NCBI GenBank assembly: GCA_030550235.1
Contig: JAUQPU010000002.1
Coordinates: 156,602 to 220,601 of the forward strand
Reading direction: 5' to 3'
DNA: 64,000 bases
Source: Thermoproteota archaeon
Lineage (GTDB): Archaea > Thermoproteota > Nitrososphaeria_A > Caldarchaeales > Calditenuaceae
Of this stretch, positions 19,980 to 56,715 are shown piece after piece. The stretch's first letter is position 1. Every line of letters starts with the position of its first letter. Position numbers and translations under genes: made by a program. The notes below the pieces were generated by a model. That model had not been told where the DNA came from, searched no databases, and saw only the letters and a list, made by a program, of their open reading frames with translations.

Positions 19980-20621
19980 ATGGTTAAAAGGTTGAATCGC
20001 CACTGGATAGTCATGCAGCAGGGCTACTATATCATCCCGGGAGCTACCACTGTAGGGATAAAGGGGGCTGATGGAGTAGTCTTGGCCTCGGAGAAGAGGC
20101 TGTCATATGGAAACTTCGTCGTCTCTAAAAATGCTAGGAAAGTCTTCCAGCTGACTAAGAACGCAGGGGCTGCCTGCGCCGGCCTGGTCTCGGACATGCA
20201 GGGCCTCATCAGGGAGGCGAAGGCGCTCATAAACATCTATATGCTGGAGCAAGGGAGGCTCCCGAGCGTAAACACAGTTGCGAAAGTCCTATCCACTTAT
20301 CTATTTGGAAACCGCTTCTTCCCCTACTTCACCGAGACTGTCGTGGGAGGCGTCGACTCGACGGGTGCTCACATCTATGTCCTAGACCCGCTGGGCTCCA
20401 TGATTGAGGACGACTATACGGCGGTTGGGAGCGGGGCCGAGATCGCGGCAGGCGTGCTGGAGACCTGGTTTAAACCGGGGCTATCATCCGACGAGATAAC
20501 AGAGCTGGCGATAAAGGCTGTGAAGGCGGGTGCGACGCGCGACGCGGCGAGCGGGAATGGGATTGATATCCTTGTGATAGGCCGATCTGGGGTTGTCCGG
20601 CTGGAGACGATCCAGTTTTAA
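19980..20621 (+). CDS. psmB: Proteasome beta subunit with Ala at the catalytic Thr1 position
   Basis: This 213-residue beta subunit has a 21-residue leader, then PG-ATTVGIKGADGVVLASEKR. In active archaeal beta subunits the same place reads G-TTTVGI, with cleavage before Thr1. Here codon 22 is GCT (Ala). The catalytic partners corresponding to Glu17 and Lys33 are kept at E38 and K54. The subunit should therefore be unprocessed and inactive, possibly structural, with an active beta paralog elsewhere in the genome. The start ATG has GGAGA upstream. Met12 is an alternative start. Confidence 0.88.
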   Translation: MVKRLNRHWIVMQQGYYIIPGATTVGIKGADGVVLASEKRLSYGNFVVSKNARKVFQLTKNAGAACAGLVSDMQGLIREAKALINIYMLEQGRLPSVNTVAKVLSTYLFGNRFFPYFTETVVGGVDSTGAHIYVLDPLGSMIEDDYTAVGSGAEIAAGVLETWFKPGLSSDEITELAIKAVKAGATRDAASGNGIDILVIGRSGVVRLETIQF

Positions 20622-24325: not shown

Positions 24326-25843
24326 TTAGCCACCGCCCGTCCCTTCCAACCCCCTATACATGTCGTTGAAAATAATCTCCTCCAGCTCATCTATCTTGAC
24401 CCTAACCTGCTGAGCATTGTCTCTATCCCTAACCGTCACCGTGTTGTCCTTTAGTGTCTGGAAGTCGATGGTTATGCAGAGGTTGGCTCCCGCCTCATCC
24501 GCTCTCGCGTATCTCCTTCCAATAGACCCCCTATCGTCATAGACCACGTAGATGGGCCTCCTACTCATCCTCAGGGCGGTGTAGACCTCCCAAGCCCTAG
24601 AAGTCAGGGCTTCGCGGTCAAGAAGCGGGAGGACTACCGCCTTTATAGGCGAGACTATCCGCGGCAGCATCAGTAGGGGCCACTCCCTAACCCCCTCCCT
24701 ATACGAGTACTCGAGGATTGCGTAGAGGATTCTCTCCACACCAAAAGATGGCTCAACCACGTGTGGAACCACCTTTACGCCGTTATCGTCCATCGAGAGA
24801 TCCTCGCCCGAGTGCCTGGAATGGACAGTGAGGTCATAGTCACGCCTATATGCGTTCCCCACAATCTCTTTCCAGCCAAAGGAGAACTTAACCTCTAGGT
24901 CAAAGTTTCCACCCGAGTAGTGTGGCGTCTCCTCAGGCAGTAGATGTCTAAACCTCATGTTCTCTGGCGGTATGCCGAGTGACTGGAAGAACCTGACCTC
25001 CCTCGCTAGATAATAGGCTAGGAATCTGTTCGGCACTATCCCCTCCTCAACCGCGTCCCTAGCCCTCAGCTCTACTGCCTCACCATTACCGCGCATCTGC
25101 TCCTCTCTCGTAAGGACACGTATCACAGTATCACCAACCTCCTCAAACCCTCTTGGGCCATCGGCTCGCAGAGGCGAAAAGAAAACCTCAACCTCCATCT
25201 GGCTAAACTCTCTCAGCCTGATGATAGACTGTCTCGGTGAAATCTCATTCCTGAACGACTTCCCTACCTGGGCCACAGCGAATGGAAGCTTAGCCCTCAT
25301 AGAAAACGCTATCCTCTTGAAGTTTAGAAAGATGTTCTGTGCGGTTTCTGGGCGGAGGAACGCGGTCTCCTCTCCTCCTCCAACGGAGAGTTTGAACATT
25401 AGGTGGTGTTCCTTGAAGCCTGCCAGCTCGCCTCCGCAGTTTGGGCAGGAGACGCCATTTTTCCTTACAATCTCCTGCAACTCCTCAATGCTTTTTCCCT
25501 CCACCTTCAATCCAAGCACATCCTCAATCAGCTGATCCACTCGATGAGCCCTGCCACACTTTTTACACTCAGCCATGGGGTCGGTGAACTTATCCACATG
25601 ACCTGAAGCCTTCAGCGCGTCGTATGGAAGTATTAGGGAACCGTCTATCAAGTATACGTCAAAGGATGTTTCCCTTTTCACGAATGTGTCTATCCAGTAG
25701 TTGATTAGGTTGTTTTTCATCAGTGCTCCGAGTGGTCCTAGGTCGTAGAATCCTGCCGATGCCCTGTATATCTCCGCTGTCGGGTTGAAGAACCCCCTCC
25801 TCAAGGCGAGCTGGACAATGCTCTCAGCGAGCTGCTCAGGCAT
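24326..25843 (-). CDS. glyS: Glycyl-tRNA synthetase (class II)
   Basis: About 505 residues. The class II core is shown by FRNEISPRQSIIRLREFSQMEVEVFF (motif 2 region) and VEPSFGVERILYAIL (motif 3). An inserted zinc-binding part has ECKKCG and CPNCGG. The ATG at 25843 is preferred, since it has GGAGGGG upstream. The longer TTG start at 25870 lies in a TATA-like stretch (GCTATTTATTG). It is slightly shorter than many archaeal GlyRS proteins. Confidence 0.95.
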   Translation of the reverse strand: MPEQLAESIVQLALRRGFFNPTAEIYRASAGFYDLGPLGALMKNNLINYWIDTFVKRETSFDVYLIDGSLILPYDALKASGHVDKFTDPMAECKKCGRAHRVDQLIEDVLGLKVEGKSIEELQEIVRKNGVSCPNCGGELAGFKEHHLMFKLSVGGGEETAFLRPETAQNIFLNFKRIAFSMRAKLPFAVAQVGKSFRNEISPRQSIIRLREFSQMEVEVFFSPLRADGPRGFEEVGDTVIRVLTREEQMRGNGEAVELRARDAVEEGIVPNRFLAYYLAREVRFFQSLGIPPENMRFRHLLPEETPHYSGGNFDLEVKFSFGWKEIVGNAYRRDYDLTVHSRHSGEDLSMDDNGVKVVPHVVEPSFGVERILYAILEYSYREGVREWPLLMLPRIVSPIKAVVLPLLDREALTSRAWEVYTALRMSRRPIYVVYDDRGSIGRRYARADEAGANLCITIDFQTLKDNTVTVRDRDNAQQVRVKIDELEEIIFNDMYRGLEGTGGG

Positions 25844-25923
25844 TCCCCTCCAACCAACCGTCTTGCGCAATAAATAGCTGTTGAGCTAGGTTACAGGGCC
25901 TCGCGTTTCCTCGCCAGTTTAAA

Positions 25924-26670
25924 TCAGCCTCTAAGCTCCCCGCCGCAGGAGGGGCACTTATTCCCTAGGTCCGCCCACACATTCAGGCAGTCTTTATGGA
26001 AGACGGCGCCACATGAGGAGCACTCTCCGAGTTCTCCGCCAGAGATTATGTCTCCGCATATTGGGCACTGGCCTCCAGCCGCTTCGGCAACCCTCTGCTC
26101 TCTCTCGGGGGGCTGCTCGTAAACCGTGGTCTGAGCCTCCGCGACGGGCTCTCTTATCTCAGTAAAGGCTTCAGCCTCCTCCCTCGCCGTAGCCCAGTAG
26201 GGTGGAGGAGTACTGTATGCCGCGACACGGGTCCTAAGACCGGCGATTAATGCGAGTACAGATGCACCGGCTATTGCTATGCCCGTAAAGAGAGAGGCGA
26301 AAAGCCCTATCTCTGGGATGAAGTTAAGCCCCTCAAAGCTTGAAAGCTTCACCAGGTAGGTGTATAGGGGTGAGAGGAGAGCTAGGCCTGAGGCCGTGAA
26401 TGAGAGAAGTGGCGTGACAAGCCTTAGCTTGGTTAGGTCCCTGATATTGGAGGCCAATACCCCGGTGGCGCCAGCCGCCCCTCCCGCGGTCAGCGAAAGC
26501 AGCAGAGGCTCCATGAAAGTATACCCAGTGATTAAGGACCTGCCAACATTATCATAGTTTATTGAGAACCAGTTGAGGATTAGGCTTAGGGCGTGTGTAG
26601 CTCCGAGAAGCGAGATTAGGGCCCCGATCCTACTGAATCTTGCCAGAGCCTCGGTAACTTGGGTGAACAT
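25924..26670 (-). CDS. Membrane protein with C-terminal RING-like (C4HC3) zinc finger
   Basis: This 248-residue protein has about four membrane helices (near 15-34, 50-75, 84-105 and 122-146), a proline and glutamate-rich linker (150-200) and a C-terminal finger. The metal ligands are C202, C205, C217, C220, H225, C228, C239 and C242, the C4HC3 order of RING-CH and PHD fingers. Eukaryotic RING-CH (MARCH) ubiquitin ligases have the same finger type next to membrane helices, usually with the finger first. No ubiquitin gene is near. Start about 30 nt from a TATA box. Confidence 0.8.
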   Translation of the reverse strand: MFTQVTEALARFSRIGALISLLGATHALSLILNWFSINYDNVGRSLITGYTFMEPLLLSLTAGGAAGATGVLASNIRDLTKLRLVTPLLSFTASGLALLSPLYTYLVKLSSFEGLNFIPEIGLFASLFTGIAIAGASVLALIAGLRTRVAAYSTPPPYWATAREEAEAFTEIREPVAEAQTTVYEQPPEREQRVAEAAGGQCPICGDIISGGELGECSSCGAVFHKDCLNVWADLGNKCPSCGGELRG

Positions 26671-26692
26671 TGGCCTGCACTACAGTTGAGCA

Positions 26693-26707
26693 GCCTATAT
26701 ATAAATA
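26693..26707 (-). promoter_or_regulatory. TATA-like promoter for the membrane RING-like gene
   Basis: The minus strand reads TTATTTATATATAGG, centred about 30 nt upstream of the ATG at 26670, consistent with a near-leaderless transcript. Confidence 0.55.
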
Positions 26708-26757
26708 AGTCTAGCCCACAGCACTTGGAACAATTGGCCAAGAGACAGGAGGATATA

Positions 26758-26767
26758 GATTTATATC
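26758..26767 (+). promoter_or_regulatory. TATA-like promoter for the 282-residue coiled-coil gene
   Basis: GATTTATATC lies about 28 nt upstream of the ATG at 26791. AGAAGG is directly before the ATG. Confidence 0.5.
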
Positions 26768-26790
26768 CGAATCATAAAAGATAAAGAAGG

Positions 26791-27639
26791 ATGGGCTCGA
26801 TAATCGGGCGGCGTTCAGAGGAGCTGGAGGCCATCTCCCAAAATATAAGGAGCATCACGATGCAGCTCCAGAACATCGAATCCTCAATCTCGGGCAACAT
26901 TATTAACCAGATTAAAGCAGTAGCCCAAGAACTCATCTCCCGTTTTGACGCCCTAGCCGCTAACCAGCCCGAATTCCTCATAAAAGAGTTCCTTGAGGGC
27001 GTGAACGTACTAAAATCCCTCACCTCCTATCTTATGATCTTTCAGGAGCAGCAGGAGGAGCTTGCGAGGATACTGGAGTTTCAGAGGGAGCAGGTGGAGG
27101 TTCTTGAGAAGGCTAGGCTAGCTATAGTCCAGGAGAGGGAGAGGCTGGAGCAGGAGAAGGGAGGTCTTGAGGTTCTTCGTCAAGAGCTGGTTCAACTTAA
27201 ACAGGAGATTGAAGAGAAGGAGAGGTCTTTGAAGAGTTTTGAGAAGGAGGTTGCGGAGCTTGAGGAGAGGAAGACGTATCTTGAGGGAAAGATCAAAGAG
27301 CTCCAGGACTACTATGTCACGGCGCTCCAGTCAGCGGTTGATGGCATTGAGAAGACTGTGAAGGAGTTGGATAGGAGGTTTAAGGTGAGGGAGGCGAGGC
27401 TTGAGAGGCTTTCCAGGCTTGAGGAGAGGAAGAGGGAGGAGCTTGTGAGGCTTGAGGCGGCCAAGTCGATTGCTGAGGAGTATAACAAGCAGTTCTCCCA
27501 GCTTGCCGAGGAGGTTCGGAGGCTGGAAAAGAGGAAGACGCAGCTATCCCAGGAGATCTCTAGGCTTGAGTCGGAGAAGAGGGAGCTGGAGAAGATTAAA
27601 CAGGAGCTCAGGGGAGGAATACTCCGCGGGTCCGGCTAG
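26791..27639 (+). CDS. Long coiled-coil protein
   Basis: This is a 282-residue protein. Residues about 85-275 are a nearly continuous charged coiled coil (repeated Glu/Lys/Arg with Leu spacing). The first 80 residues are helical and less charged. No membrane helix or catalytic motif is seen. It is divergent from the membrane RING-like gene and overlaps by 4 bp the tail of a second coiled-coil gene on the other strand. SMC-like fragments can look alike, but no hinge or ATPase part exists. Function unknown; a scaffold role is a guess. Confidence 0.75.
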   Translation: MGSIIGRRSEELEAISQNIRSITMQLQNIESSISGNIINQIKAVAQELISRFDALAANQPEFLIKEFLEGVNVLKSLTSYLMIFQEQQEELARILEFQREQVEVLEKARLAIVQERERLEQEKGGLEVLRQELVQLKQEIEEKERSLKSFEKEVAELEERKTYLEGKIKELQDYYVTALQSAVDGIEKTVKELDRRFKVREARLERLSRLEERKREELVRLEAAKSIAEEYNKQFSQLAEEVRRLEKRKTQLSQEISRLESEKRELEKIKQELRGGILRGSG

Positions 27640-28013
27640 CCTTCTTGGGACCTTAGATAGCGCTCGACAATATCTGCCAGGTAGTCGAGGAGGTTTAGCC
27701 TTTCCTGAATCTCGCCGAGGTCATCCTCTATAATCTCAAGCCTCTTCTCAAGCTTAGATATGTCGTCCATAATCGCCTTCAGTGTTTCTTGGAGCTTCTG
27801 CAGCTCGCTGCTCGCTATTTGCCCACCAGCCAATCGGCTCGCAATCTCCCCAATCTTCTCGTCATGCTCCAATAGCCTAGAAGAGATCTTCTCGAGTGCA
27901 CGGAAGGTGCTGTCAAACTCCGGTACCCGGCCCCTCGGCGTCTCTATGACATTGACGACTATCTCTTCCTCCTCGCCCGGCTCGGCCTCTTCTCCCTCCT
28001 CGTCACTGCTCAT
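27636..28013 (-). CDS. Acidic coiled-coil protein coupled to the small RING-like gene
   Basis: This is a 125-residue protein. Residues 1-20 are strongly acidic, a short linker follows, and residues about 35-122 are a coiled coil. Its start overlaps the end of the small RING-like gene by 11 bp, so translation is probably coupled and the two products may interact. No known family is recognised. Confidence 0.72.
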   Translation of the reverse strand: MSSDEEGEEAEPGEEEEIVVNVIETPRGRVPEFDSTFRALEKISSRLLEHDEKIGEIASRLAGGQIASSELQKLQETLKAIMDDISKLEKRLEIIEDDLGEIQERLNLLDYLADIVERYLRSQEG

Positions 28014-28272
28014 CTAGGCTCACCCTACATTTAGGGCATGCTGACTTAGTATTCTTAAGGTTTCTGTAGCAGTCTGTATGAAAGACTGCCCCACAATTAC
28101 TACACTTGACAACCTCCGCCCCATCATCTATGTCTAGGAGGCAGGCGTCACAGCTAACGATGGTCCAGTCCCAAACCCCTAAAGACTCCCCAACCTTGAG
28201 TCTGAACAATCCACTCGGTAGTGGCCGGGCTCGAATATATAAAACCCCACTCCTCCGGTTCCATGCCTTCAT
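28003..28272 (-). CDS. Small RING-like (C4HC3) zinc finger protein
   Basis: This is an 89-residue protein. Residues 1-38 look beta-rich. The finger has ligands C41, C44, C57, C60, H65, C68, C79 and C82. The pattern C-x2-CGAVFH-x-DC and the spacing after the third Cys are the same as in the membrane protein 1.3 kb away, so the two fingers are related. Aigarchaeal genomes are known to encode a small RING-finger protein with ubiquitin-like genes. This gene could be of that sort, but no ubiquitin, E1 or E2 is adjacent. It could also be a non-ligase zinc finger. Confidence 0.8.
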   Translation of the reverse strand: MKAWNRRSGVLYIRARPLPSGLFRLKVGESLGVWDWTIVSCDACLLDIDDGAEVVKCSNCGAVFHTDCYRNLKNTKSACPKCRVSLDEQ

Positions 28273-51961: not shown

Positions 51962-54133
<2,172 letters not shown>

Positions 54134-56100: not shown

Positions 56101-56715
56101 TTAAATTTTGGTCGCTGATCCTGTTTCGCTTATCTTTAGGGAGTCTGGAATCTCTGGGAAGGCTGTCTTCATCCTCTGGGCGGCGACCTCGGAAGCCTCT
56201 TGCAGTATCTTCTGAGCCTCACCATCGCTTACGGAGACGCTTGTGATGGAGCCTGTGACAGAGCCCGCCTCAATTATCAATCCCTCTAGCATCTCGTCGA
56301 CATACCGGAGATTCTCCGCAACCTCAGGCACAACCCCAGCTAGGTCCGACTGGACATGCTTTATAATCGCAGTGGCCGGGCCGAGGACGTGCATCACGTC
56401 GCCAAACTCTTTGACAGTCTCGAGCCTCAGAATTACCTTTTCGAGCGATAGCTGGCTCCGCACCACAACCCTTGACATCTTCCTAAGCTGCGCTATCTCG
56501 TTGGCGTATATCGTGGCTCTTCCCATGTCTCCCTCCTGCTGAGCCCTTACACACTGCTCAAAAAGGTCCTTACCCCTGGCAATCAGCCTCTGAGCAGTCC
56601 TGTTCAGCTTCTCAGACTGAATCTTCAGCGAGGTAACTATCTCCAAATACCTGCTATCAGAAGCGATTATGCCTTTGCCCTGCCCAGCATCTCTCTTAAA
56701 CGGGTTTTTCAACAT
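56101..56715 (-). CDS. cdvB: CdvB/ESCRT-III-like protein
   Basis: This 204-residue helical protein has the Snf7/ESCRT-III arrangement: a basic N-terminal helix, the long hairpin helices (SLKIQSEKLNRTAQRLIARGKDLFEQCV; ATIYANEIAQLRKMSRVVV) and an acidic C-terminal half. It forms filaments in cell division or membrane remodelling. The C-terminal winged helix of some CdvB forms is absent. CdvA and CdvC genes are not adjacent. Confidence 0.9.
   Translation of the reverse strand: MLKNPFKRDAGQGKGIIASDSRYLEIVTSLKIQSEKLNRTAQRLIARGKDLFEQCVRAQQEGDMGRATIYANEIAQLRKMSRVVVRSQLSLEKVILRLETVKEFGDVMHVLGPATAIIKHVQSDLAGVVPEVAENLRYVDEMLEGLIIEAGSVTGSITSVSVSDGEAQKILQEASEVAAQRMKTAFPEIPDSLKISETGSATKI

Follow-up and report, generated by a model that had tools for sequence, protein, structure and literature searches.

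A putative second, membrane-anchored RING of the archaeal ubiquitin pathway beside the small RING of a divided Caldarchaeales operon

Within the window, the 64,000-nucleotide stretch of DNA analyzed here, from a hot-spring archaeon of the Calditenuaceae, a single locus encodes two RING proteins, and we hold with moderate confidence that it is one half of a split ubiquitin operon, in which the smaller protein corresponds to the known small RING of that operon (srfp) and the larger, a membrane protein designated memRING, is a second RING of the pathway and a putative E3. The ubiquitin operon of Caldiarchaeum, the best-studied model for the beginnings of the eukaryotic ubiquitin system, has been described as encoding a single E1 and a single E2 together with a small soluble RING (PMC5654768). 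The present locus suggests a larger set, comprising a second, membrane-anchored RING found across the order and a family of srfp partners that occurs also in Asgard archaea, and it suggests that such a simple archaeal system, too, tags proteins at the membrane. Both memRING and this partner, here termed ccB, are new elements of the locus; no paper describing either was found in the open literature, and an earlier mention elsewhere is possible. In a survey from 2014, the zf-RING_2 proteins of one aigarchaeal genome numbered up to nine, apparently without being described (PMC4327156), and James et al. note that their own choice of E3s was not exhaustive (PMC5654768).

Two RING fingers at one locus

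Both open reading frames are present in the window: memRING (25924–26670, minus strand, 248 aa), with the ligand pattern C-x2-C-x11-C-x2-C-x4-H-x2-C-x10-C-x2-C, and the small RING (28003–28272, minus strand, 89 aa), with the pattern C-x2-C-x12-C-x2-C-x4-H-x2-C-x10-C-x2-C. The locus also contains two coiled-coil genes, ccA (26791–27639, plus strand) and ccB (27636–28013, minus strand), and GlyS, a glycyl-tRNA synthetase (24326–25870, minus strand), is the near-constant downstream neighbor of memRING. The claim of an earlier note on this DNA, that the locus encodes two related C4HC3 fingers, is borne out: the eight zinc ligands are invariant across 39 orthologues of memRING and 39 of the small RING, and the pair is found throughout the order. 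The Pfam profile zf-RING_2 scores 33.4 bits for memRING and 35.5 bits for the small RING, both above its cut-off of 27.3, and nearly all orthologues of the two proteins likewise pass. A phmmer search against the PDB returned the RINGs of E3 ligases (RNF4, EL5, Arkadia, and gp78). In Foldseek, AlphaFold2 models of the fingers, which are without zinc, matched the RINGs of RNF165, Ark2C, gp78, EL5, and Arkadia, the best matches having rmsd values of ∼1.4–2.7 Å; memRING matches RNF165, Ark2C, and gp78 at 1.4–2.1 Å, and the small RING matches EL5, Arkadia, and RNF165. On profiles and predicted fold, both fingers are assigned as RINGs.

RINGs usually follow a C3H2C3 or C3HC4 order, with C-x1-3-H-x2-3-C/H-x2-C; all aligned orthologues of both fingers depart from it, with C4HC3 and C-x2-C-x4-H-x2-C. 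The RING-CH fingers of MARCH proteins are spaced C-x2-C-x10-45-C-x1-C-x7-H-x2-C-x11-25-C-x2-C. The likeness to RING-CH proposed earlier holds for the order of the ligands but fails for their spacing (C-x2-C-x4-H vs C-x1-C-x7-H), RINGv is absent among the 25 matches listed for either protein, and the assignment was rejected. PHD fingers are C4HC3 with an aromatic residue two positions before the seventh ligand. This residue is absent from both fingers and the PHD profile gave 15.1 and 19.3 bits against a cut-off of 24. A zinc ribbon, the fold named in the earlier note as counting against a RING, was rejected on the zf-RING_2 profile, the spacing, and the best Foldseek matches, all of which are E3 RINGs. 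That they have nothing to do with ubiquitin and belong to the zinc-ribbon or PHD type is extremely improbable and largely refuted: the spacing C-x2-C-x4-H-x2-C is PHD-like and weak PHD matches exist (15–19 bits), but these fall under their cut-off while zf-RING_2 exceeds its own, and synteny links the small RING to an E3 whose activity has been demonstrated biochemically (PMC5654768). That E3, the Caldiarchaeum srfp, shows a similar deviation from the usual order, with an additional cysteine, and is active nonetheless (PMC5654768). Prok-RING_1 (PF14446) has a similar C-x2-C ... CGxxFHxxC core and scores 29.2 bits for the small RING (cut-off 29.1) and 27.4 for memRING; however, the first part of the profile alone is matched, and zf-RING_2 scores higher for both RINGs.

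The genome (1.43 Mb in 15 contigs, 91% complete) also encodes the ubiquitin system for which the earlier note had recommended a search. Genes for Ubl, E2, JAB/Rpn11, and an E1 whose C terminus is a ubiquitin-like domain lie together on another contig, C7, with no RING adjoining them, and memRING and the small RING are the sole zf-RING_2 matches in the whole genome. Both outcomes that the earlier note had named as refuting its reading, a zinc-ribbon fold and a missing ubiquitin-like system, were thus decided in its favor. The Ubl of this genome (L003:7116–7361), like that of other Calditenuaceae, has the di-glycine (RTVGG) as its very last residues and lacks the propeptide of the Caldarchaeum and Terraquivivens Ubl, so that maturation by Rpn11 would be unnecessary in Calditenuaceae. 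Rpn11 is followed on the same strand by a coiled-coil gene of ∼260 aa (L003:8228–9007), which is also present in families f2 and f4 and part of f3 and is without an assigned family. The genes for CDC48 (51962–54127) and a proteasome subunit (19980–20621), to which the earlier note had appealed, are indeed in the window; being unlinked to the RING locus, they give it no specific support. A Snf7/ESCRT-III-like protein is encoded at 56101–56715, ∼28 kb from the RING locus.

Gene order, the small RING, and ccB

Gene order was compared across 44 genomes of the order, in which Calditenuaceae is family f1 and the other families include Terraquivivens, Wolframiiraptor, Geocrenenecus, Caldarchaeum, and Pelearchaeum. 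E2 is present in all 44 (in G011, which is 57% complete, by a weak match alone) and a zf-RING_2 protein in 43. The layout in f2, f3, and f4 is Rpn11 (minus strand), followed by Ubl, E2, E1, the small RING, and ccB, then ccA (minus strand), then memRING and GlyS; in Calditenuaceae the Ubl-E2-E1-Rpn11 half is located elsewhere and the remaining half is mostly kept together. This downstream half, srfp-ccB-ccA-memRING-GlyS, is identical in the window and in the order. Judged by gene order, Rpn11 / Ubl-E2-E1-small RING-ccB / ccA / memRING-GlyS is the ancestral layout of the order. memRING lies less than 3 kb from srfp in ∼29 genomes, and in genus g2 and genome G015 it stays with GlyS while srfp is found elsewhere. 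In three Terraquivivens loci (L100, L106, and L095), E2 and E1 are up to ∼2 kb apart, which suggests an insertion within the ubiquitin operon.

Because the order E1-srfp-ccB-ccA-memRING-GlyS recurs in the other families, the small RING is identified as the srfp orthologue, relocated from its operon in Calditenuaceae, and the earlier suggestion that it belongs to a further E3 set falls away. It shares its size, an N-terminal G-x-W motif, and the C4HC3 ligands with srfp of Caldiarchaeum subterraneum (James et al. 2017, PMC5654768); in the other families the gene follows E1, whereas in Calditenuaceae it is detached from Ubl-E2-E1. The Caldiarchaeum protein is an active E3 in vitro, and in its cascade the substitution I30Q abolished activity and W58A and R69A impaired it (PMC5654768). 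The srfp encoded at this syntenic position in the Caldarchaeum genomes has I30, W58, and R69, each under precisely the residue number at which James et al. introduced their substitutions. The finger of the window copy (residues 41–82; 28027–28152, minus strand) has lost the equivalents of I30 and W58, with Ala and Leu at these sites, and retains Arg at the R69 site. The protein is therefore classed as an orthologue of srfp, which may or may not share the catalytic behavior of the Caldiarchaeum protein.

The small RING gene probably starts at TTG 28209, giving a protein of 68 aa, because a TATA-like box (28235–28244, minus strand, TTTTATATAT), read by eye, is situated ∼26–35 nt upstream of this codon and close orthologues begin there. 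Similar boxes, also read by eye, lie ∼30 nt ahead of the memRING start codon, ATG 26670 (26697–26704, minus strand, TTTATATA), and ∼28 nt before the ccA ATG at 26791. With a TATA-like box for each RING gene, the two are probably transcribed separately. In a RING tree built on 50 columns the memRING sequences form one group (support 97/86); the placement of Calditenuaceae srfp with memRING in that tree (long branch, 87/80) was set aside, as the columns are too few and the placement contradicts synteny. No relatives of the small RING were found on viral contigs.

ccB overlaps the srfp stop codon by 11 bp and combines an N-terminal E-T-P-[KR]-G-x-[VI] motif, read in the window copy as ETPRGRVP (27921–27944, minus strand), with a coiled coil. 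Throughout the order the family consists of short proteins with N-terminal [DE]-T-P-x-G-x-[VI] and a coiled coil, some copies being without the exact motif. Of 39 Caldarchaeales loci (the window included), 38 have ccB directly beside srfp, often overlapping it. A homologue carrying K-T-P-x-G-x-V is found beside srfp, in a different arrangement, at all 12 srfp-bearing Asgard loci, which belong to Hod-, Hermod-, Heimdall-, and Baldrarchaeota; comparison of the Caldarchaeales and Asgard ccB profiles gave 96.8% probability (E 2e-10). A Pfam family covering ccB was not found, and ccB appears to be an undescribed and ancient family of srfp partners defined by a TPxGxV motif. Loci with a ccB-family gene beside srfp include L165, L167–L170, L173, L174, L176, L177, L180, L181, L196, and L198. 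The product of ccA, a 282-aa coiled-coil protein encoded between ccB and memRING at a position conserved across the order, gave weak coiled-coil matches alone in Pfam and NCBIfam.

The membrane RING

AlphaFold2 models memRING (mean pLDDT 83.8) as a membrane protein with a C-terminal RING. Four transmembrane helices in the model occupy residues 5–146 (26233–26658, minus strand) and span residues 5–31, 53–75, 79–111, and 121–146 (block pLDDT mostly 92–98); beyond them are a disordered linker and the RING (pLDDT 85–92). Hydropathy gives three to four transmembrane segments in 40 related sequences and just two in the window copy at the same threshold. Helices 2 and 3 are joined by a strongly positive loop (residues 73–86), whereas the first loop on the outer side is acidic, so both termini are predicted to be inside and the RING should face the cytoplasm, in keeping with the earlier proposal that one of the two RINGs acts at the membrane.

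The finger (residues 202–242, C4HC3; 25945–26067, minus strand) has Ile and Trp at the E2-contact sites and Gly at the linchpin site. Among the 39 memRING orthologues, I204 and W232 (each at least 90%) and P240 (invariant) are the sole non-ligand positions of the RING conserved to at least 90%, and these three are the canonical E2-contact positions of RINGs. Their conservation is the main argument that memRING works with an E2. The Ile and Trp contact sites are those of James et al. (PMC5654768). A basic linchpin after the last ligand is absent, Gly being found in all Calditenuaceae and Lys in most of f3. Such a residue is frequent, not universal, in E3s. Any activity of memRING may therefore be low or changed in some lineages: Calditenuaceae lack the basic linchpin, and in Caldarchaeum Tyr replaces Trp and the linchpin site holds Gly.

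Full-length memRING was found in 41 of the 44 genomes, the other three being incomplete or broken at contig ends; a search of 256 genomes from the rest of the phylum found none. Within the order, its co-occurrence with the ubiquitin system is uninformative because both are near-universal there. Another 20 genomes that carry related E2 genes, almost all of them Asgard, contain many RINGs; at the 15 loci examined, none matched the memRING transmembrane domain. One archaeal protein (L229, isolate Dive100_bin10.34) has ∼7 predicted transmembrane segments and a C-terminal RING; its profile is unrelated to the memRING transmembrane domain.

Membrane-anchored RING E3s of eukaryotes include gp78/AMFR, Hrd1, and RNF13, as well as the MARCH proteins, which are RING-CH. 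These combine a transmembrane part with a cytoplasmic RING, as predicted for memRING, and the memRING finger model matches those of gp78 and RNF165. The C4HC3 spacing of memRING, however, is unlike that of either RING-H2 or RING-CH, no sequence relatives of its four-helix domain were found outside the order, and no ERAD partners are known. Like claudin/TARP proteins, memRING has four transmembrane helices and short strands in the outer loops; with a best Foldseek E of 3.5e-3 (no match under 1e-3), a TM-score by target of up to 0.59, and 7–15% identity, this likeness is weak and an analogy at most.

The case for memRING as a second RING of the ubiquitin pathway is built on the Ubl, E2, E1, and Rpn11 in the genome, with no RING beside them and only these two zf-RING_2 proteins, the gene order, the conserved E2-contact residues, the E3-like predicted fold, the topology, and the restriction to the order; from these we infer an E3 activity. 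Against a role in the pathway, the tightest neighbor of memRING is GlyS and not srfp, and the gene has its own promoter-like box. In the mechanism that we propose, the locus would be the downstream half of the Caldarchaeales ubiquitin operon region, split in Calditenuaceae from the half encoding Ubl, E2, E1, and Rpn11. srfp would be made together with ccB, which probably oligomerizes it or brings substrate. The four-helix bundle of memRING would hold its RING at the cytoplasmic face, where the Ile, the Trp, and the Pro of the CPxC loop could dock the single E2~Ubl of the genome. The membrane would then be the site of ubiquitin-like tagging, the substrates presumably being proteins embedded in it or associated with it, and CDC48 and the proteasome would act downstream. 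Whether archaea carry out membrane-based ubiquitylation is thereby opened to direct test.

The E2-activating triad, divided between the two RINGs in Calditenuaceae

In all scorable Calditenuaceae genomes, srfp replaces I30 with Ala, Val, or Ser and W58 with Leu but keeps Arg or Lys at the R69 site, and memRING has Ile and Trp at the contact sites with Gly at the linchpin site. In the other families, srfp has Ile or Val, Trp, and usually Arg or Lys, and memRING has Ile, mostly Trp (Tyr in Caldarchaeum, with Gly at the linchpin site), and often Lys. A full triad on one RING is thus never found in Calditenuaceae and is carried by at least one RING in most genomes of the other families. Loop 7 of E2 reads W[YH]PN in Calditenuaceae and mostly WSPS, WRPG, or similar elsewhere. 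Confined to one clade, the split counts as one evolutionary event and is beyond statistical test; it suggests either that E2 docking has moved to memRING or that the interface has been re-tuned. It also makes directly testable how docking and activation of E2 are apportioned among RINGs whose residues sit on separate chains.

Three other accounts of the two proteins were weighed. memRING could have a RING fold without being an E3: its finger would bind some partner other than E2, the protein would serve as a scaffold or sensor in the membrane, connected with GlyS or with maintenance of the membrane, and its place near the ubiquitin operon would reflect descent alone. The near-constant linkage to GlyS, the genomes in which srfp lies apart, and the missing or variable linchpin would fit, but the conserved positions of the finger are those that contact E2 and srfp is less than 3 kb away in ∼29 genomes, and we judge this account unlikely. 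Two-chain RINGs are known from pairs such as RING1B-BMI1 and BRCA1-BARD1, and the Calditenuaceae srfp and memRING might form an obligate two-chain E3 of this type, memRING docking E2 through Ile and Trp and srfp, having given up docking of its own, contributing the basic linchpin or other support. The family lacks a single RING with the full triad, which most genomes elsewhere have at least once, and its E2 loop 7 has changed too; yet the pattern stems from one clade and hence one event, the linchpin in solved RING dimers is normally provided by the RING that binds E2, and the two genes are unlinked in genus g2 and probably not transcribed as one unit. Such an obligate pair is quite unlikely, and its fullest form, a two-chain, membrane-anchored ligase with docking on memRING, the linchpin on srfp, and a ccB partner shared with Asgard archaea, is very unlikely.

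Somewhat more room must be given, tentatively, to the possibility that the Calditenuaceae srfp binds the altered E2 through its Ala and Leu and stays the main E3, with memRING as an accessory. Functional RINGs, BRCA1 among them, can have Leu in place of this Trp, loop 7 of E2 is altered in the same family, and srfp has kept its ligands, its linchpin, and its partnership with ccB; against this, I30Q abolished and W58A impaired activity in the Caldiarchaeum cascade (PMC5654768). The reading of memRING as a second, membrane-bound RING of the pathway, alongside a relocated srfp, is the one that we prefer. A distribution the reverse of that in Calditenuaceae is seen at the linchpin site in genus g13 (L111 and L113), where srfp has Gly and memRING has Lys.
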